64,000 nt of DNA, taken from Nemopilema nomurai (lineage: Eukaryota > Cnidaria > Scyphozoa > Rhizostomeae > Rhizostomatidae). Of this stretch, positions 22,011-34,635 are shown one piece after another; the first letter of the stretch is position 1; each line of letters opens with the position of its first letter. Both the position numbers and the translations under genes were made by a program. The DNA is taken from contig ML133366.1 of NCBI GenBank assembly GCA_003864495.1, positions 1,278,871 through 1,342,870 on the forward strand. Reading direction: 5' to 3'. The notes beneath the pieces are model-generated. The model was not told the DNA's origin. It made no database searches and saw only the letters and a program-made list of their open reading frames with translations.

Positions 22011-22828
22011 ATCAACATTGGCTTACTTTTTTATTTACTATAAAGAAATTGTTAATGGGTAGATTTTAATAAAAATTGACTTTCTAACATTCATATTAAC
22101 TGCACAGACTGCGTAAAGAATGTCAAGTTTACAAATTATTTTCATACTAGTTGCACAGTGTTAAAATACCTAAACACTCTCAAAACTGAATTAATCATAA
22201 TGTGATCATGCTTCGAACATGGATGTTGAGTAATGAAAATAAAAGTTATTACTCAAAAAATTGTACAATTAAGAAGCTTTTGACAAAATTACTATTTTAA
22301 TTTGGGAAAGGTAACTTTTGCCAGCACTTTGGAGTATGTGACCAACTTAGTCATGTTTTAAGGAATGAAAAACAATACTCAGATGATGAAGTATTCTTAA
22401 AGAGGAAATGAAACCAAATTTTTTATTTTAAATTCTGAATCCCCGTAATGAATTACCTTATAACCCAGAATTTCAATGTGTTTAGAGAAATTTTGGCTAA
22501 ACTACGAGGGCAATACTGACTTCAATTTTTCAATCAAAAAGTGGCACCGGTGCGCCCTGTTTAACTAGCCTCGTTTTGAATGTTGTGACGTAAAGTTATG
22601 GACACGCGCAGCGTTTCGTAATATTTACATCCCGTTTCTACGTACTGCAACTTTAGATTAGCTATGGAGCCAGGTAACAAAACCAAGGTTCGTGGTGGTC
22701 TACGATGTGTTGTACACACTCTAGACAATAAAAAGCTGTTGTAATGACAGTTATACCAAGGGTTTAAACACCCATCGCTTTCCAAAGGACCCTACTGTAC
22801 GCCGGTGTCACATGCGTTTCGGTAACCT

Positions 22829-23240
22829 TATGCATTTCGGTCCGGGTACACAAACGCATGGCAATTTTGGTTATGCAAAAACGTACCCAAGCACTTAAAG
22901 AAGAGGTAACCAAAACGAATGGTAGAATTTAATATGCATTTCGGTCCGGGTACACAAACGCATGGCAATTTGGGTTATGCAAAAAGGTACCCAAGCACTT
23001 AAACAATAGGCAACCAAAACGAATGGTAGAATTTAGCATGCATTTCGGTCCGGGTACACAAACGCATGGCAATTTTGGTTATGCAAAAAGGTACCCAAGC
23101 ACTTAAAGAAGAGGCAGCCAAAACGAATGGTAGAATTTAGCATGCATTTCGGTCCGGGTACACAAACGCATGGCAATTTTGGTTATACAAAAAGGTACCC
23201 AAGCACTTAAACAATAGGCAACCAAAACGAATGGTAGAAT
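22829..23240. repeat. Four 104-bp tandem units near the Ginger1 end
   Basis: Units start near 22830, 22934, 23038 and 23142 with ATGCATTTCGGTCCGGG, and contain ACAAACGCATGGCAATTT, GGTACCCAAGCACTTAAA and CCAAAACGAATGG. The last block, read inverted, resembles the terminal ATGCGTTTCGGTAACC of Ginger1. These may be extra transposase-binding sites (inference). Confidence 0.8.
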
Positions 23241-23460
23241 TGGGCCTTTCTCTTTGAACTGCACTAATCTAAAAAAAACTAGTTTGTTTACGAAAAAGCT
23301 TAGTTGCAGACATAAATGCAATTTGACGCATGAACCCAGGTCATAATAAAAGGATAGTGAAGAAAATCTAGAAAAACTCGATTCAAAAGGTAGTAAATAT
23401 GTGATTTATAAAACATCAGCAGGTAATATGAAAAATTAAAAAGTAAATTCAGATTTTAAT

Positions 23461-26400
23461 TTAAACTCCATCACGTGAAAACTGTTGAATATCTGATGGC
23501 AGAAGTTCATCTTTCACACTGGAAAGATCGATCTCGGATCCTGTCACCGAAATATCGATCGAGTGTAAGCAACTTTGTTTGACACAATAAAAATAATTTC
23601 GTGCACCTTGGTGCCATTTACCATCGCGCTTGAGATAGAATGGTTTGGAGCTGTAGTGTCCGATCAGAAATCTTTGCATTGCTTGCTGCTTTTCCTTGAA
23701 GGGGGCCCTGCATGCTTCACACCTTTTGGCTCTTGTTTTTTTGCCAACCTTCATCATCAGATATCTATATTTGATTTTAATTTTTGAAGCTTTTGGTGTT
23801 GCTAGGACTTGTTGTGGAGATCCTGGAGGACTCGGATTTTCGATTGCTTTTGCTACTACATGCACGAGCTCCGAAATGCAAACAGCGCACTCGAAATCTT
23901 CGTTGTCTTGGAGTTTCGTCTCTCCTTTGCACTTAGCATGGATCCATCTTGGGCATGACATACATTGTAGCTAGAAAAAAATGCAAGTTTCTCGTTCAAA
24001 TTTGTTTTCTGATTTTTACAAAAATCTATTATGTGACGAATGAATATTTGTAGTTAACTTTTGGTGGTCAAAATAGATAGGCGATCAAAAATAGACTTTT
24101 TCCCGTTATTGTATCGTCGGGTAAGTACAGATGTAGAAAATTCCCGTATTTAACTGTATTATATAATTCTTTTGTTGAATTGATAGCCTTGAAGTTTAAA
24201 AAAAATTAAAGAAAATTGCCCAGTCAAGTACTTACTGTAACATCATCACCTTCATAAAAAGAGCAAACGCTGCACCATCCATTTTCTCTGCCATCTGCAG
24301 TATGAAAAAAAAGGGTTGTGAAAATTCTTTACATGAAGATCCATTTGAAAAGCAGTCCGCTGGTCTGAAAGGGCTACAGTTTTAAATGAAAATGAAAATT
24401 TTCAAACAAAAGCAACAATTACAAATCTATACAAAGTATTATGCACATGTTCAAACATTTGCTGATGTAGAATAACTGTATGAAAAAAATCTTCAACGTT
24501 TTCACTTTCATATATTTTTGCAATTAAGTGAGAAATATCTCACCTGACGATGCAACAAGTAATTCTGCGATTTCTTTACGGTATCTCTCCAAGTCCGCAG
24601 TTTTATTTGCAATGTTTGCGTGTCCTTTAGCAATTATCTGTTCTGCAAACTGATAGCAATACAGATAAATTTATTTTTCCATGAATGAGTACCACAAACA
24701 GAAAATTAATTTTTTCAGACAGACAAAAAACATACAGTCTTCTAAAATTAAGTGAAAATTTATTGAGCTAAACTCGCCTAGACTAACAGGTACCATTCAA
24801 ATTTGCTATACTTCTTCTTTATCCTTAATACTTTTTGATACAAACACAAAGCATACCTTCATTGTGTAGACACCGCAGTTAAATCCATCAGTTTGTTTTG
24901 GATGCAATAGCGCTACGTATCTCCACGCAATTGTCGGTGCGTTGAGATATGCCACCCTGTTTCGCCAGAATAATCTAAACAAATAATTACAGTAGAAATA
25001 TAGTCATTTAGGCATAGAAAGAGCCTTATCAAATTCATTATGCAGCAATTTAAAAATAAGCTATACAGTCAAATAAATAATATATGGGTATATTCTCCAT
25101 ACTTCCAGTTTTTCATGAGTGTTGCCACCTGACTTTGAAGCTCACCAAATGAATTAAGGAACATTAATGTTCCTTCTTTGGGCTTCACCATCTGCAAACA
25201 GAATAGAGATTATAGAGATTAGTGATTAAACCGCCTTGTCGTGGAAGTTAGAATCGATGGCCATCAAATGTGAACGAGACGACTTGCATGTAAAAATTCA
25301 GGAAGACGGAACTGCGAATTTTTTCAGACGACTTACAACTAGAGTCCAATGACATGAATTCATGTTATTTCCACCAACCACAAAGTCGTAATCCTCAATT
25401 TTTACCTTTAAGAAAAAATCTGTGAGTGTATTTCCGAAAAGCAACAAAAATATTCGAAACTTATTGATGTATTTTATTATTCATCTATTATTTTGCTGAA
25501 GAGGGGCCTAAATTTTCTCTGACAGGCTGAGCTTTCGTCGTCAAGGCTGAGAGCATTTGTCATATTTTTCTACTTAAATTCACACGATGTAGTGAATGTA
25601 ATCAAACAAAGGAAATCTTTTTTTATGAGCCAGAGTAAACTAATCTCATTTTCATTTAAGCAATTCGTGTTTCTGATTGGCGATATTTATTTATTCCACA
25701 ACTGGGTATATTTATTTCCTAGCGTAAAGTTTTCGATCTATGTTCTGACGTACTCTGAAGTTAGTTTACTAAAATGTTTGCTTTTTTCAAAGCCATTTTT
25801 AATTTTGGTACTACCAAAAGATTGTTTGAATTCTTACCTTCCTTAGCTTTTGCTTGTAGCACAGTCCATTGCAAATTTCGGACATGATGCAGGAGCCAAT
25901 GACCAAAATCTTTGTCTGTGAAAATTTTCTTTATTGTAAATTTTTGCTTGCCCAGATAGATTTACGAAACATGTCTAGTAGCAATTTTTAAGCCTCTTTT
26001 TTACGTTTCTTTATAAATAACCGTTAAAGATAAAGACTTTTACACTGCATAAAGCAATAACATCATCAAAATTTTGAACTGCTTTTTAAAAATTTGCAGA
26101 GTCATCAGAAAATTAGTTCCAGGTAGTTATGCACTTTATACTTACATTTTGGTTGCTGTATAGCCTCGACAGAAGAACCAAATACACGTCTATCACCTAT
26201 AAGATAAAAACACAGCTGGCTGCTAATTGTTTCTGTAACATCGTTTTCTCACATTTGGCAACATCTTATATCATAGCACCTAATTTTTCGATTGAAATGA
26301 AGTCAAAAACTCCTAGTAGCTACAGTCTTTGCAATCACATAATATATACCATAATAAAATTTATAAAAGTTTGTTTCTATATATATTTCCATTCATAAAG

Positions 26401-29287
26401 TGTAAATTTTGCCCAGAACTCATGTAAAGTAAAGCATTTGTTTACACAGATCAAGGTTTTTTTGAGCAGTTAAAAAGCACTATTTACTGCAAAACCTGTG
26501 ATAGGAACTTTTTAATTTTAAAAAACTTTTCTCATTAAAAAACGTAAAATTCCAATAAATTATTCGAATTGTACTCACCTCATCTGAAAGGTATGATTCG
26601 CCCTTCAGCTCTAGGATTCGGTTATCACTGAGGCTTATACCATTGATGTTGCTTACGCAATATCCAACACCGCCACATTCCCATATGGTGTCAACGACTA
26701 GAAATAATCACAAAATATTATGTTGAGCTGGGTTACAACATCCAAAATAGATGGCTAAAATTTTATTAAAAGGTAAAAGTATCTAGTACTAATTGTAACA
26801 CCCAAGAACACTTGTCTAAACATAACAGGTTGGAAAAAAGAAGAGATAATTGAAATTGTCACTGTTAGGAGAGCAAGCAATTCTTACCAGCGTTGGGAGG
26901 CAATTCCTGTTTTCGTAGAGCCTTGTCAGATGGTCGTAGGTGGACACTTGGGTCGTCATCTTCTATCGAAATCACCTGCGATTTTGTGACAAACGACGAA
27001 GATACCTTGAATGCATACGCCTCCCCATTATCTTCATCATTCGTCTGGCTGACAATGATGCTCTCATCTTCTTTTTAGCTCGGTTCTGGAAACTATAGGC
27101 GAAGATTGCGCATTCATTTCTGGATAACCTTTGAGGTTATGGGCGAACTGTTCCTGATTTTGCAACATGCTATCATCTTCACAGAAACCAGTCACATTAG
27201 TATTATCTGCAAAAGCAATTTCAGAATCATCATCCTCGTGAATTCTTGATTTGCTCTTTTCCTTTATGTCCCGATCTACAATCTCTTCAGCCTCATTCTC
27301 ACCTTCATCGACAGTAGGATTTGGCACCAGATTATTTGTGTTGTCTTCCGCGTTAGGCCTCGTCTCAGTTTTACTTTCGGTTTTTTCTTCTTCGAAAATC
27401 CAAGGTTTTAGGTGCTTTATGTTTTTTTTCACTTTTTTACCATCAAGGAAGACATGCTTTGATCCAACAATCTCCGAAATGGTATACGGTCCTGTCCATT
27501 TCTTGGCAAGCTTGTCTCCTTTGCGGGTGGTTTGACGAGCAGTGAACAGCAGCACCTTTTCACCAACAGAAAATGTAATGGCCTTCTTTCCATCAGGAAG
27601 TCTTCTTTTTCTGTAGTACTTTTTTTGCTTCTCTTGTGAAATCTTGATGTTTTTTTTTGCAATCTCATCTTTCTTTCCTTTCACGTCATTTATCTTGTTG
27701 ACGAAGGCAACAATGGCATCTTCTAATGGGAGCTGTATTCTCTTCTGCAAAGAGACATTGTTGTCGTTAATAGATGCAATCACTAATTTGCTTCAGCATT
27801 CAAGTGTCTAATAAAGCAGGAAATTTGATGCAAATAATAATGAATAATCATAGTGCATAGTTATTTTGGGAAGTTAAGCCCTCTTAGCTAAGGGTGTGAC
27901 CCCCCCAAACAGCCCCACCCCTACCCGCTACGCCCCTGAATATATTAGACCATGCTGGACATTTGAAGTTCACCTGTTTTGTGTTCAATCAATGTTCAGT
28001 GATACTAAACATGAGTCAAAAATAGATTGCTGTATTCTCTTCCAATAAGGCCAATTTACAAAATTATAAAAATTGACTTATGCTCTTAAATAATCTAACT
28101 GAAAAAGCTAGAAAACAGATACCTCAGATATATCACTAACGATCTCCGTAGTTTCGATTGGTCGCGGGGCTTCTCGGCCATACATCAATTGAAAAGGAAA
28201 AAATTTTGTGGTAGAGCTTTTTGTTGTTCTGATTGAAAACAGTATTGGGTCAATAAGCTCGTCCCAATGATCAAGGGACTCCTCCTCTGAAAGAAGCTTC
28301 TCTAAACGCCTTGAAGTAAATTTAAAATATAGATTCAAAAGTGAATTAATAGAGTTTATGATCCTCAAAAATAAGCATTTTACTCCAGAAAATATTTTAA
28401 TGATAGAAAAACAAGTTAACATTTTAAAACTCCACTTTAAATACCGTAAAAGCTCTATTAAGGCCCTGGGCTCTTTTGTTCTTAAATTTGTAGGGTGTAA
28501 GCAATGCGATTGCTAGGGAGGTATGCAGGCCTCATTTGCCAACAAAGTGAGTGAGACAACCTTCATTTGCTAACAAGTTTGAATATTCATCGAAAAAGCA
28601 CCCACACATGGCTTAAAATTCTCGTTTTTGAGAACGTTGTTCGAAATTGTTTAATTTGTTCTTAACTTTTGACCAATTTTCTATTGAGGCTCGTGTTCTA
28701 TGAAATTGTTCTTCTAAAGAAGAGTTTTTTCGACAACAAAGAGGGCACCAAGATCAGGAGTATTAAAATCACAACATGCTGCATAATAAATCAACTCTAT
28801 ACCTTTTTATATTCTGATTTGTCCTTTCGTCTAAACCATTTGCCTGCGGATGGTATGCTGCCGTCATCTTGTGATTAACGCCAAGAATTTGGTAAAACTC
28901 TTTGTTCAGCTAGTAAAAAAGAAATAGCCATTTCTTGATTTTTATTCAGCCTACCGATCTCTATTGGCGTAAATGTAGAAAATAAAACACGATGTCCGTT
29001 TTTAAGAGGTATTATTGTGGAAAAAAGGATTTGGGAACGATGTCAGAACTCCAGCAATAACAACAGAAGCTTAGCAATATCTATATTTAAATATAAATGT
29101 ACATATCTAATCATAAGGCGAAGGCTGACAAGAGGAAAATCTTTCCACAAGGGTGCTACCCAATTATATCGAACCACTCTTGGTCGAAATCGAACTCCAG
29201 TTTGCTGCTTCAAAAACCCCCACTCATTCCACTGAGCCAAAGGGCCCAATATATATATATATATATATATTTATGTTTATATATATT

Positions 29288-29352
<65 letters not shown>

Positions 29353-31872
29353 ACCATACCTTGCTGATTTCAGGGATTCTTAGCAAACTATTTTACGAAA
29401 AAGCTCCATTCTTTCAGAAAAAAAGAAATGGTGGTGTGGGAGGGGGGGGTCTATATTTATATTTGTATTAGATCAGGCAGGTCAGTGCAGGGGTGTTGAG
29501 AACTTACATCATTTGCAAACTCTCTTCCTTGGTCTGTTAAAACCTTTTCAGGGGACCCATGGCGACAAAACAACTTCACCAGGCAACGTGCAACTTCTTT
29601 CGCTGACTTTTCTGGTATCGGAAATGCTTCTACCCACTTTGTGTAATAATCGGTGCAGGTGAAAATGTATTTATTGCCCTTTTTTGTCACAGGATAGGCA
29701 CCCATCAAGTCGATTCCAATCATCTGCCACGGCTTTGTCACCTGGTAAAAAAGTTGCCAGCTGATAATCTATTTTTTAATAAGAACCAGTAAATTTAAGT
29801 TCAGGCTGACTGTTCTTAATTTTTTCGAAAATCTGAGGCTGGATTGTTCTTAATTTGTTCTTAATCTAATAGGGTGTTAAGCAGCGCGAGTGCTAGCTTT
29901 TTTGCTCTAGGGTGGTGTTCAGGCCTCATTTGCCAACAAAGTGAGTGAGACAGCCTTCAATTGCTGACAAGTTTGAATATTCACCGAAAAAGAACCCTCA
30001 CATCGCTTGATTTTGAGAAAAAACGTTGTTCAAATCTGCATTTTGCAGAAGCTCAGCCTCAGCTTGTTCTTAATTTGTTCTTAATTTTTGACTAATTTTG
30101 AGGCTCGGGTTCTTATAAAATTGTTCTTATAAAAAAAGAGTGTACATTACAGATTTTTTCAAAAGAACACCTTCTTTTTACGCAGTTTTCTCAAAACCGC
30201 TTGATTCAAATTAAAAGAATACTTTTATATATAAAGAATAATCAAGGTTTTTCTTCACGGTTTTTGATTTTGAACAAAGCTCGGATAGAGTCGAAATATT
30301 GCTCATAGAAATAAAAAAGTTTCCATTTGATAGCTTTAAGTACAATATGAGCTTTTTATACCTGCGCGAGAAACTCAAGCAAAGAAAAAGCGTATCTAAG
30401 GGAAACCTTTGCACAAATCTGCAATCTTTAAAGAGTCCATAAACGGCCGTTTAACAATTAAACCGCGATTTGAAAGAAATTAGAATTTAAAAGCGGTACC
30501 ACCAACTTGTCGATGGTACATCCTCAATGACCATTGCTAAAAAGCTCAAAATAGCCAAATCAAGCCCATGCAAACAAATCTTCAATATAGACATTTACCT
30601 TCAGAGCCTTGGAGTATCCTCAGTCTAATTGATAAGTATACTTTTGCAAATAGTTTATATTTACGTAATCCAACCTCGATGCATTCCAAATCTACGTCAA
30701 CATTTCTGAGAGGCTGACCAGTCGTATAGCATTTCATGCATCTTGAGCGCTGTGGAAGAAGCATGGTGTTGAATAAATTTATTTAGAAGCTATGCATAGT
30801 AGAGGGATTATATTTTGCGAGTTGCGAGTCGTCAGTTGCAAGTTTGTTTTTCATCCTGTCAGTCCGTTCTTTTTACCCCAAAGTATAACAGTTATGCCTC
30901 ATTGTGCGCAAAGAAATTCAGTTAGTAAAAATATGTTGTCCTTGGACATTAAAGCGTTTTTTTGCAATAGGATATCCATTGAGCTTCGACCGTTTCTTGC
31001 TCCAAGAGCTTCCCCAGGCTGGAAACATCTTTGCAAAAGCAGAAACTGACAACTCGCAGCTGACAACTCGCAAGTCGTAACTCGCAACTTGTAAATTACC
31101 ATATCCCCCCATTTTGAAATTCGAAGTAAAAAGTGGTTTTTAAAGGTTGTTCTAAATCGCTATTAACATAAAACTGTTGTAACAAAAGCAAAGAGTACTG
31201 AAATGAACAATGGGCTGAAACGCTAAAACGCGTTTTCAAATAGCTGAAACGTTTTCTACTTACAAAATATCTTAAATGCGTCGTTATTCCTTTCCATTTG
31301 TATCTGGAACAAATTTGCTCCTCGGTGTTGTTGAACCCGCTATGGCCACCAATTGGGCTGTCATGAAATTCTTTGAAGATTTGCTCTGCCTCTTCCAAAG
31401 AACAAACGGCTTTCAGTTTTTGAAAGTGGCTTCGCGATTTTTCATTTTTGGATTTTTTGAAGTAAAGAGCATTGCCTGAAAAACAGCTCCTGCTTAATCT
31501 TCTTCGGTAAAAGTTTCATAAAGTAATGTTGAAAAAAATGTGAAAACTTTCACATACGAAGAGCCTAAGCTAGTATTGTTCATCGACGGTGTCACTTCAT
31601 TTTATTCTGAGAAGGGAATGTACGAAATATATCATCAAAAAATGGACACAAAAGCAATGGAAATGCCATTTACCTTCAAATTCATATTTGTTTGCATATC
31701 GACGCAGGGCACGCTTTTCTTCATTTGAGAAGTCGTTTGGGTAAAGTACTGGGCCTGACAGTCCTTTACTTTTACCTTCATGATACACAAAGATATCATT
31801 CATCAATTTGAAATCTTTTTTGACAACTTCGTATTCTGTAGTTGTTTCCTCGAGCGTCTTACCTTCCTCCAT
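23461..31872 (-). CDS. Ginger1 integrase-Ulp1 protease-PHD protein, 16 exons
   Basis: Transposase of the CCGG-flanked element. Exons (minus): 31872-31674, 31475-31264, 30749-30675, 29741-29508, 28909-28803, 28309-28123, 27744-26888, 26697-26579, 26196-26146, 25915-25838, 25405-25337, 25191-25103, 24974-24857, 24649-24544, 24294-24236, 23970-23461; all introns GT-AG, all phases fit, about 1,022 residues. Domains in order: HHCC zinc finger ([15 protein letters not shown]); DDE core ([25 protein letters not shown]); GPY motif ([12 protein letters not shown]); acidic linker; Ulp1-type protease ([30 protein letters not shown]); PHD finger ([24 protein letters not shown]); a second Cys cluster ([21 protein letters not shown]). 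One extra A in an A5 run (27072-27076) shifts the frame in exon 7, the only break seen. The Ulp1 Asp position reads Asn (MFLNSFG). The start ATG is the first in frame after the last upstream stop I could see. Confidence 0.85.
27932..27956. repeat. hAT-like terminus inside a Ginger1 intron, weak
   Basis: CCCGCTACGCCCCTG is typical of non-autonomous hAT ends (inverted: CAGGGGCGTAGCGGG). No partner end or duplication could be found in the intron. Confidence 0.25.
28455..28715 (+). repeat. Intronic MITE-like repeat, copy 1
   Basis: Shares GGCCTCATTTGCCAACAAAG, GAGTGAGACA and CAAGTTTGAATATTCA with 29775-30135, in the same orientation. It lies in the intron between the fifth and sixth Ginger1 exons. 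No coding content. Confidence 0.65.
29150..29249 (-). repeat. tRNA-derived SINE head
   Basis: Minus strand starts GGGCCCTTTGGCTCAGTGG, with an A-box-like TGGCTCAGTGG, then GGAGTTCGATTTCGAC as a B box about 40 nt on. No tRNA clover-leaf is complete. It adjoins a (TA)n run. Confidence 0.5.
29250..29346. repeat. (TA)n microsatellite
   Basis: About 95 bp of TA/ATTT repeats inside a Ginger1 intron. The Tyr/Ile-rich open frames across it are artefacts. Confidence 0.95.
29775..30135 (+). repeat. Intronic MITE-like repeat, copy 2, with end repeats
   Basis: A longer version of the 28455 repeat. It starts TAATAAGAACCAGTAAATTT and ends with the inverted-like GGTTCTTATAAAATTG. A third partial relative lies near 32070-32160 (TTATAAGAACTAGTAAATT). 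It sits in the intron before the exon encoding the first two integrase Asp. No protein coded. Confidence 0.6.
30818..31090. repeat. MITE-like element with inverted ends in a Ginger1 intron
   Basis: GCGAGTTGCGAGTCGTCAGT at the left end pairs with ACTCGCAAGTCGTAACTCGC and neighbouring ACAACTCGCAGC at the right end. About 270 bp in total, lying in the intron between the second and third Ginger1 exons. No gene inside. Confidence 0.65.
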
Positions 31873-32645
31873 CGTTCCAGTTGCTGTTCTTTTCAGGTCG
31901 ATGGACGTTCAGATAATGAAAGAAATTTTTAGAGTGGGCACATTGATGTTGCATAAAAAGCCTGCGGGGCATGGACGCATGGTTTCTCGCAACGCCTGAC
32001 ATCTTGTCATCACAACTGCAGCTTTACAAAAAATAGACTGGAATGTTGACCTTTTTCCAAATGCACTTTTAATTTATAAGAACTAGTAAATTGAAACTCA
32101 GGCTCGTTGTTCTTAATTTTTTCCATTTTAAGCATTGAGGCTGGACTGTTGTTAAGTTTGAAAAATCGAGAAAAATCCCCTAAATCCCATTTTCGAATTA
32201 CACTTTTTAAGGGGGTTTCGTAAATTTGTTCAAATTTAAAGTTTGGCTGTAATTCTGCCTCAGCTTGTTCTAAATTATTTCTTCGAAATGGTTGTACATA
32301 CAGCCAAGAAGTTTGGCCTGTTTGACTAAAACGTATATACAAAGCTTGACCTCAAGTTATTTAATTTTTGTAACAAAAGAAAAGACGGTACAAAAGCAAC
32401 TGAGTTTATGGATACGGTTCTTGTGCTTTGGCTCGTTATTCTTTGCATTCCGGTTTGGTCGGTATTGTTCAGGATGTAAGGAGCAATCTAACTAATTGTT
32501 AACAAGGCAGTGCTAACTACAAGCGGTGCTCTGATTTCCTTTATATAGGAAACGCAAAGAGAGTACAAAATAAATGGCGCCGCTAGTTTGCGTGATAGGC
32601 AAGTGTGAAATATTTTGTTCGGGAAGCACTGCGTTCCATTTGTAA

Positions 32646-32738
32646 CGCACATTGTGTCCTAACATCACACCATGATAAATCAACACGATTTCGCACATTG
32701 TGTCCTAACATCACACCATGATAAATCAACATGATTTG
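32646..32738. repeat. Two 46-bp direct repeats near the upstream Ginger1 end
   Basis: CGCACATTGTGTCCTAACAT begins at 32646 and again at 32692, and the units are nearly identical (one C/T difference seen). They lie about 60 bp inside the terminus at 32797, upstream of the transposase start, so they may be promoter or binding elements. Confidence 0.75.
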
Positions 32739-33465
32739 TAACACATTGCGTTTCACAATGTTACACTTTTGCATAGGGTACCAAAACGCATATTACACCG
32801 GCAGTGAACTAAATTTGTTAGAAAGCGTAGGCCAAATTTCGACTAAAGCTACTTTTCAAACCCCGTCCTTTGCGCAGATCATATTGAACCAGGTTGCTAT
32901 ACAAGGAGCGTAGCTAGTCTACTAGAGGGGGACGACGTTTCACAAACAAAAATGTTTTTACAACGAGATGCTGTTCTGGCATTATACGTTCTGGCATTAT
33001 ACCAGAAATGAAGGAAATTCAACCTCTCAGTCTAAACGGGAAAAAGAAAGGTAAGATTTAATTTTTTTGCCTACTTCATTTTCAATATATTCCTTTAATT
33101 AATGTGTAAATAAAGCAAAATATACGATACATAAAATGACAAGGTTAACTACAATATATAAACGTGGAGCTCGCGTTTAAATCTTCCCCCTCAAAATAAG
33201 TAGATTGGGTACCACAGAATAAAAGTAAACACAACTCGCTACTTCTGATCTATTTAAACAAAACAATTGGTTTTATCAAAATCTCAACGTGATAAAAGTT
33301 TTCATAACAAACAATTGGTGTTTATTGTGGCATATTTTTTAGAATGTTGGCATTGCACTTAAAAAACAACATTTTGTATCTTCTACAAAGTCAAGCCCTT
33401 CCAATTTGAAGGTTTACAAAATACATATATGCATATAGAACATTTATCAAATTGTATAGATTCAC

Positions 33466-33660
33466 CCAGGGCACCACCAAAAGGATTAGTTCTTGCTGAC
33501 AAAAAGGCTGATTTTATGTGTTTCTGTTTCAAATGTTAGTATGTTACAATTGTTGCAAAAAAGTTACAGGTAGAGTATCCAGCAAGTTTCCTGGCAAAAA
33601 TAACCAATGTAGGGGGGGGGGGGTACCACACCTACCAAACCCCCTTTGGCGACGCCCCTG
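33466..33660. repeat. Possible small hAT-like MITE
   Basis: CAGGGCACCACCAAAAGGAT at the left and the inverse of CAGGGGCGTCGCCAAAGG at the right bracket 195 bp in an intron of the THAP gene. No matching 8-bp flanks were found, so this is weak. Confidence 0.3.
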
Positions 33661-34635
33661 GATGTAGTGGCTCAAATTCACATTCTGTTTTTCAGGGTGT
33701 AAGAGATACAATACAATGTGGCTTCTGTTGCGGATACACAAATGGAACTATTCAAGAGCAATTATTCGACGAAGCAACATCTTCTAAAACTGATAAATGG
33801 CATACAGTCTTTACAGAAACCAGCATGGAAGCAACTTCATTTCCAGATGTGTCAAGTTTAGCCTGTCAAGATTGCAAAGTGAAAACCTTGAGATTGAAAA
33901 ACTTGAGTGAATCGCCAAAATCTGAAAATAATTAGACAGAAAAGGAAATTAACAAGTCAAAATAATGTAAGTTCGCTTTGCACAATAACATTTGCTGATA
34001 TGCCAAAATTAAAATTCCATTTCATTTCCATATAAATTACTTTTTGTAACCCTTTTTTCATTTATGCTTTGTTTGTAGGCAATCAATTATCTAAAATGTA
34101 AAATAAAGAAATTCAGAGAGTCAAAACAAGGAAAGCCAACTAAGCCCGGGAAAAACATGGAAGTTGAAGAGGAAGACATTGATTCTGATTCCTACAAAAG
34201 TTTCGCTGAAAATGATGAGGAGTGGAATCCAGAAAGAGATGAGGATGAATTCGAAGACAGAGAAGAATAATTTGTAAATGAGGGAGAAATAGAATGTGTG
34301 AAAATTATGACGATGAAAGAGTAACCAATGAAACAAGAGGAAACATTAGGTAAAACTATCATGATGACATCATTGCATAATTATATGATAGAAAAGGTAT
34401 GAACAAGTCACATAATAGGTAATATTCTCCACCAAACTGTAATACTTAAATACTGTAATACTGGGGAGATTTGACAACTTGTTGAACTTGTAAACAAAAG
34501 AAAATCCATGGTAAAAATGATTACAGCTCTCAAATATCTGATTAAAATAAAACTGCCAAAACTATTTCCTTTTAAAACTATCAATCATATACATGACTTG
34601 CTTCATTAAATAAGATAATTTGTTTTGTTACTTAC

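Follow-up and report, generated by a model that had tools for sequence, protein, structure and literature searches.

A probable, almost full-length Ginger1 transposon in Nemopilema nomurai with a predicted 16-exon gene for integrase, Ulp1 protease, PHD finger and a Cys4 module

Results and discussion

Gene structure at the locus

The stretch of DNA analysed here (64,000 nucleotides of contig ML133366.1 of Nemopilema nomurai, hereafter the window) harbours, from position 31872 down to 23461, a gene whose 16 exons were rebuilt from the minus-strand sequence (Table 1). A first-pass annotation had proposed 16 exons with GT-AG borders, matching phases and about 1,022 residues. This proposal agrees well with our reconstruction: GT-AG borders were present at 15 of 15 introns, the phases were consistent apart from a single frame change within exon 7, and the spliced exons add up to 3,070 nt, one base more than 1,023 codons. 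The coordinates given at that time (23461..31872) cover the gene, whereas the element to which it belongs is larger (22806-32797).

The description of the gene as nearly intact was also apt, as one frameshift was found, in exon 7 at about 27064-27075, where a frame-0 stop at 27064 is followed by reading in the next frame. Since exon 7 of a second copy, on contig C133, is open across this site (open frame of 309 aa), we treat exon 7 as one exon and the frameshift as private to the window copy. The donor of intron 3 is weak (gttgga in the window, gttaga in the C133 copy), and some exons are spliced differently in EukProt gene models. In the C133 copy, each of the 16 exons retains its splice borders; judged by this sequence conservation, the exon structure exceeds what chance would produce.

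Table 1 Features of the Ginger1 element in the window
Feature	Position	Strand	Remarks
Whole Ginger1 element	22806..32797	-	9,992 bp; TIR/TSD, two-copy alignment, empty sites
Left target-site duplication (TSD) CCGG	22802..22805	.	single CCGG in four empty sites
Right TSD CCGG	32798..32801	.	single CCGG in four empty sites
Left terminal inverted repeat (TIR), TGTCACATGCGTTTCGGTAACC...	22806..22834	+	34 nt at 85%, TSD included
Right TIR, TGTAATATGCGTTTTGGTACCC...	32770..32797	-	near-inverted partner of TGTCACATGCGTTTCGGTAACC
Subterminal tandem array, 104 bp x 4	22830..23241	+	TIR-like TGCRTTTYGG per unit; TGCGTTT words on minus strand
Subterminal repeat of other end, 46 bp x 2	32646..32737	-	repeat search
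Exon 1	31674..31872	-	start codon; YPYY-like N-terminal motif by eye
Exon 2	31264..31475	-	HH of H2C2 zinc finger
Exon 3	30675..30749	-	CC of H2C2 zinc finger; weak donor gttgga
Exon 4	29508..29741	-	integrase core, D173 and D232
Exon 5	28803..28909	-	integrase core, E268
Exon 6	28123..28309	-	end of integrase core region
Exon 7	26888..27744	-	GPY motif 27484-27492, acidic linker, frameshift ~27064-27075
Exon 8	26579..26697	-	start of Ulp1-type protease
Exon 9	26146..26196	-	Ulp1
Exon 10	25838..25915	-	Ulp1
Exon 11	25337..25405	-	Ulp1 catalytic HW
Exon 12	25103..25191	-	Ulp1, Asn in Asp position
Exon 13	24857..24974	-	Ulp1 Q-x5-C
Exon 14	24544..24649	-	end of Ulp1
Exon 15	24236..24294	-	PHD finger, first CxxC
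Exon 16	23461..23970	-	PHD remainder 23878-23970, Cys4 module 23569-23721, stop codon

Domains of the predicted protein

Pfam matches above cut-off were obtained for rve (3e-15), H2C2 (3.5e-11) and Peptidase_C48 (7e-11). At the residue level, the H2C2 finger is formed by H104/H111/C141/C144 and the DDE core by D173-D232-E268, spaced by 58 and 35 residues, with a GPY motif at residue 423; a YPYY motif upstream of the finger (LYPNDF...RYANKY...LYF) was fitted by eye only. The protease part carries the Ulp1 catalytic set His-Asn-Gln-Cys with Q-x5-C and matches the solved structure of SENP2 (7.5e-7). Asn occupies the Asp position also in the C1 family (see below) and at C45:871930-872013. No OTU match was found in the gene by Pfam, the protease being represented by Peptidase_C48 alone, and reverse transcriptase and RNase H were likewise absent among the gene's Pfam matches.

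As for the PHD finger, its Pfam match (5.5e-4, 20.3 bits) lies below the 24-bit cut-off. We retain the assignment despite this, because the full C4HC3 pattern is present, split by intron 15, and because the region matches PHD fingers of solved structure, the best being KMT2C (1.2e-4) and KMT2D (2e-4), followed by SET3, PHF20 and EBS. The HHCC, DDE, GPY, Ulp1 (HW, QxxxxxC) and PHD motifs listed in the first-pass annotation are thus borne out by residue checks and Pfam, the PHD finger at a sub-cut-off score. The matched KMT2C and KMT2D chains are presumably those of PHD6. Their similarity to the window finger is only moderate, and they belong to chromatin enzymes, not to transposases. PHD6 of KMT2D (MLL4) reads H4K16ac, according to PMC6534582. 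In the window finger, one Trp directly precedes the first Cys and another stands two residues before the His. A Trp pair placed in this way would suit an aromatic cage such as that of methyl-lysine-binding PHD fingers.

Past the PHD finger, the protein continues into a Cys4 module of the pattern C-x2-C-x41-C-x4-C (23569-23721). The sequence R-N-Y-x-x-C-V around its third Cys was invariant in 4 of 4 aligned rows, and the second Cys cluster proposed previously is indeed real and conserved in relatives. Up to E 1, Pfam matched nothing in this stretch, its profile found nothing below E 0.25 among solved structures, and structure prediction for exon 16 from the four-row alignment (mean pLDDT 33.8) yielded no usable Cys4 fold.

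Ends of the element and its insertion site

The element begins with TGT and ends with ACA, its two termini (TGTCA and TGTAA) both conforming to TGTNR. Only about 30 bp of the terminal inverted repeats align, at 85%, which is shorter than the published 40-270 bp, a descriptive range. The second copy (C133:2510654-2520601) is 97-99% identical to the window copy, aligns over the same span and stops at identical points; it has CCGG at both borders and flanks that differ from those of the window. When the 150+150 bp flanking the window copy were joined, matches over the full length at 98-99% were obtained at all 40 of the 40 places scored, out of 88 candidates. Four of these empty sites (L070-L073) were read, and each showed the two flanks meeting at one CCGG. 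We conclude from these matches that the element inserted into a copy of another abundant repeat, with duplication of CCGG. The repeat that hosts the nested element occupies 22396-22805 and 32798-34405 of the window. The units of the 104-bp array are possible candidates for transposase binding sites.

In non-coding parts of the element (28475-28725, 29854-30141, 29776-29856 and 32073-32158), repeated stretches about 70-78% identical to each other with GTTCTTAATTTGTTCTTAA-like words were also observed. Rfam at gathering threshold detected nothing in the window.

Other copies in the genome

The TIR word was found at 28 places and its reversed control at none; this count takes in the two termini of the window copy and those of the C133 copy, as well as three same-flank pairs that are maybe duplicates (L043/L052, L051/L061 and L056/L057). 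CCGG preceded the word at 21 of the 28. Short two-ended derivatives of 90-826 bp were present at 13 places; their 4-bp direct repeats were perfect in eight cases (CCGG in six, GCGG/CCGC in two), had one mismatch in four and two mismatches in one. One of these derivatives, 276 bp long (G000 C137:848804-849079), is flanked by CCGG at either end.

Genome copies were sought exon by exon, and their counts are lower bounds. None of the four long family copies (window, C133, C70 and C45) retains an uninterrupted gene. The C133 copy has a 61-bp deletion in exon 4 and a stop in exon 3, while the C70 copy contains stops, a gap of about 9 kb interrupting it before exons 1-2 and a decayed left end. In the C45 copy, exons 4, 5, 8 and 9 were not found and the other exons are damaged. 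The window copy, with its one frameshift, is presumably inactive.

At C1:1642454-1663601 lies a copy of a divergent family, with identities of 37.5-89% depending on the stretch aligned. It keeps the exon order through the Cys4 tail, with the PHD finger likewise after Ulp1. Both splice sites agreed in place and phase with those of the window at 11 of 15 introns; I7, I9 and I15 matched on one side only, the comparison covering all introns but I6. This copy is decayed as well, with a stop in exon 7 and one PHD Cys changed to Arg. Its intron 13 (L034 4699-8519) contains a THAP-type DNA-binding frame, with more frames on the opposite strand (by eye), which looks like another transposon nested in this relative.

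A survey of other copies for the PHD module had been suggested in the first-pass annotation; among the loci read, the PHD exons were kept at C133 and C1, with PHD and Cys4 pieces together at C45:869904-870433, C1:1672517-1673061 and the near-identical locus C2:688559. Another locus, L068 (G000 C25:3042400-3046900), encodes a Ginger1-like integrase with a core 58% identical, and no Ulp1 or PHD match was found in its 4.5 kb. At L069, neither half of the protein was matched.

Selection on the PHD and Cys4 exons

Substitutions were compared as raw counts, without mutation-bias correction. In the PHD and Cys4 exons, 15 synonymous and 12 amino-acid changes separate the window from C70 (n=27; expected synonymous fraction 0.208, p 7.8e-5), and 16 synonymous and 22 amino-acid changes separate it from C45 (n=38, p 0.002), the two comparisons sharing the window branch. 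The signal was weak in the integrase exons (13/36 synonymous/amino-acid changes against C70, p 0.2; 20/46 against C45, p 0.037), and for Ulp1 the counts were 9/14 against C70 (p 0.04) and 4/10 against C45 (p 0.33). Against the young C133 copy no selection signal was detected (5/16, p 0.45), which is what dead copies should show. From these substitution patterns, which point to purifying selection on the PHD and Cys4 exons, both parts were probably needed in the lineage that produced the copies, which argues against a merely decorative tail.

Related proteins and the integrase tree

Searches with the N-terminal part of the protein returned 199 matches, of which the best 120 are considered here, supplemented by a search with P0017; residues 566-1020 found nothing at E 0.001. 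Two related gene models come from EukProt, namely P0001, which is 94% identical across 29% of the query, and P0009. By eye, junctions I7, I8, I11, I13 and I14 of P0001 are as in the window, with exon 10 skipped, and so is junction I15 of P0009. P0017 combines Ulp1, a shortened PHD finger and Cys4 in one model, as P0121 does similarly; as matches to P0017 in this genome reach only 23-53%, it probably comes from another species. In P0017, P0122 and P0003, the exon-1 segment runs straight on into that of exon 6, with zinc finger and catalytic core missing in between, which could reflect either repeat masking during annotation or an integrase-less isoform or derivative.

A narrow word search for the PHD pattern identified one of 122 proteins and a wider one four of 122, together with the window. 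One PHD-bearing candidate, P0039 (ENA set), was rejected as a Ginger1, being Gypsy-type with the PHD finger before the integrase, and represents a separate association of PHD with integrase. Proteins of the bivalve Mya arenaria (P0038) and of the sponges Ephydatia muelleri (P0027) and Corticium candelabrum (P0051) resemble the window in having an integrase followed by HW/YW...Q-x5-C and the PHD pattern. Unlike the window protein with its Cys4 tail, all three stop soon past the PHD finger. Pfam recognised Ulp1 only in P0038, the protease of P0027 and P0051 being assigned by motif only, whereas the PHD finger is under the Pfam cut-off in P0038 and above it in the other two; P0051 lacks the start of the integrase.

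The integrase tree comprised 24 chosen rows, namely the window and 23 of the 120 proteins; P0002 (a two-integrase chimera), EukProt models without the integrase core and published Ginger1 sequences were left out. The window integrase groups with proteins of bivalves, sponges and fish, whose Pfam lists contain no reverse transcriptase, in a clade with support of 95/97, and the Gypsy-labelled rows lie outside this clade. The pair of OTU rows forms a separate branch of its own. No single group was recovered for the 12 rows that lack reverse transcriptase, one origin appearing in 14% of bootstrap trees.

Comparison with published Ginger1 elements

According to Bao et al. 2010 (PMC2836005), Ginger1 elements are recognised by 4-bp duplications of CCGG or CCGT/ACGG, TGTNR ends, integrase motifs and a C-terminal OTU or Ulp1 protease, never the two together; the association with Ulp1 or OTU had rightly been called established. 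The same paper lists Ginger1-9_HM of Hydra as 'Ulp1, PHD' (Table 1 and Figure 1 legend), and the earlier suspicion that a Ginger1 gene ending in a PHD finger might be new is thereby overturned. Ginger1-9_HM shares with the window the C-terminal Ulp1 and PHD and, as a Ginger1, the CCGG-type target and TGTNR ends, but has 3,758 bp, 120-bp TIRs and 2 introns as opposed to 9,992 bp, about 30-bp TIRs and 15 introns. Ginger1-5_HM is also a Ulp1-type element with introns, four in this case, with no PHD listed in PMC2836005; it has three introns in common with the host genes Gin-1 and Gin-2, which possess 6-8. Relative to the ranges given in that paper (2.6-7 kb, TIRs of 40-270 bp, 0-4 introns, 500-800 residues), the window element is exceptional in its 15 introns, 10 kb and about 1,020 residues.

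PMC2836005 was the sole paper surfacing in full-text literature searches for Ginger, Ulp1, PHD and transposase. Within this scope, which was article text as distinct from supplements and Repbase entries, neither a Cys4 tail nor a Ginger1 with 15 introns was found described. Hence, the fusion of integrase, Ulp1 and PHD is already known, and it is the Cys4 module and the intron-rich build that set the window apart; both look like new details. Imagin, a domesticated Ginger1 of malacostracans (PMC12863088), likewise possesses a Ginger1-derived integrase with introns. It is described there as a host gene without the DDE triad or inverted repeats, both of which the window has, and the words PHD and Ulp1 do not occur in the text of PMC12863088.

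Interpretation

The earlier assignment to Ginger1, as one fused gene, gains support from the ends, the CCGG duplication, the empty sites, the tree and the related copies. On these comparisons, we consider it very likely that the locus holds a Ginger1 DNA transposon of recent insertion and nearly full length, in which one spliced gene encodes the whole transposase. Domestication of a Ginger1 as a host gene, as in GIN1 or Imagin, with a host function explaining the many introns, would fit the purifying selection on the exons, and 15 introns do recall the multi-exon host derivatives (6-8 introns in Gin-1/Gin-2, PMC2836005). Yet inverted repeats and CCGG duplications flank the locus, empty sites exist elsewhere, a 97-99% identical second copy resides at a different locus, the catalytic DDE is present and the window copy is frameshifted, so that we regard domestication as highly improbable. 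It would be exceedingly improbable, in our opinion, that a fragment of a Gypsy LTR retrotransposon or of another integrase was joined by chance with Ulp1 and PHD exons of an adjacent gene. The integrase core is Gypsy-like and PF00665 matches 150 scored places in the genome, but the gene's Pfam matches include no reverse transcriptase or RNase H, all domains lie inside one pair of inverted repeats, and the exon order recurs at C133 and, with losses, at C70, C45 and C1. Moreover, integrase, protease and PHD are joined in single-protein models elsewhere, and the tree sets the window apart from rows bearing reverse transcriptase.

For the Ginger1 transposon thus preferred, a model of action is proposed. 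It assumes a single transposase composed of the N-terminal motif, H2C2 finger, DDE core, GPY motif, Ulp1 protease, PHD finger and Cys4 module. This protein would bind the terminal and subterminal repeats, and its DDE core would excise the element and insert it into CCGG with a 4-bp stagger, in a putative cut-and-paste manner. Meanwhile, the Ulp1 domain might strip SUMO or a related modifier from the transposase itself or from host factors. The PHD finger could tether the complex to a histone tail of the methyl-H3K4 or acetyl-H4K16 type; contacts of the Cys4 module with DNA, histone or a partner may assist in this. That the PHD finger might bias the choice of insertion site, as raised in the first-pass annotation, is plausible as a hypothesis. 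There is, nevertheless, a considerable chance, if somewhat short of even, that the PHD and Cys4 parts are protein-protein or structural zinc modules, e.g. for recruiting Ulp1 substrates, and not chromatin readers. Compatible with this is the placement of PHD after the protease in the window, P0038, P0027 and P0051, the last three of which end soon after, as well as the lack of a recognisable relative of the Cys4 module in Pfam and among solved structures. Against it stand the C4HC3 pattern with the two Trp residues placed as described above, and the best solved matches, which are PHD fingers of chromatin proteins.

A broader scenario, which we put forward tentatively and consider rather unlikely in its entirety, would extend the transposase model to an ancient, animal-wide PHD branch of Ginger1 to which the Cys4 module was added in this lineage. 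PHD and Cys4 would then steer insertion into CCGG towards a certain chromatin state (e.g. CpG-rich active), and the full transposase would arise only with complete splicing.

Conclusions

Our results suggest that the PHD finger, although listed in the literature for a single Hydra family, is shared more widely among Ginger1 proteins of the Ulp1 type, namely those of a bivalve, of sponges and of this genome, and that selection acts on it jointly with a Cys4 module not described before. Whether a histone reader carried by a transposase chooses the insertion site thereby becomes a concrete and testable question. Finally, an intron-rich element of this kind may help to explain the presence of introns in Ginger1-derived host genes such as GIN1.
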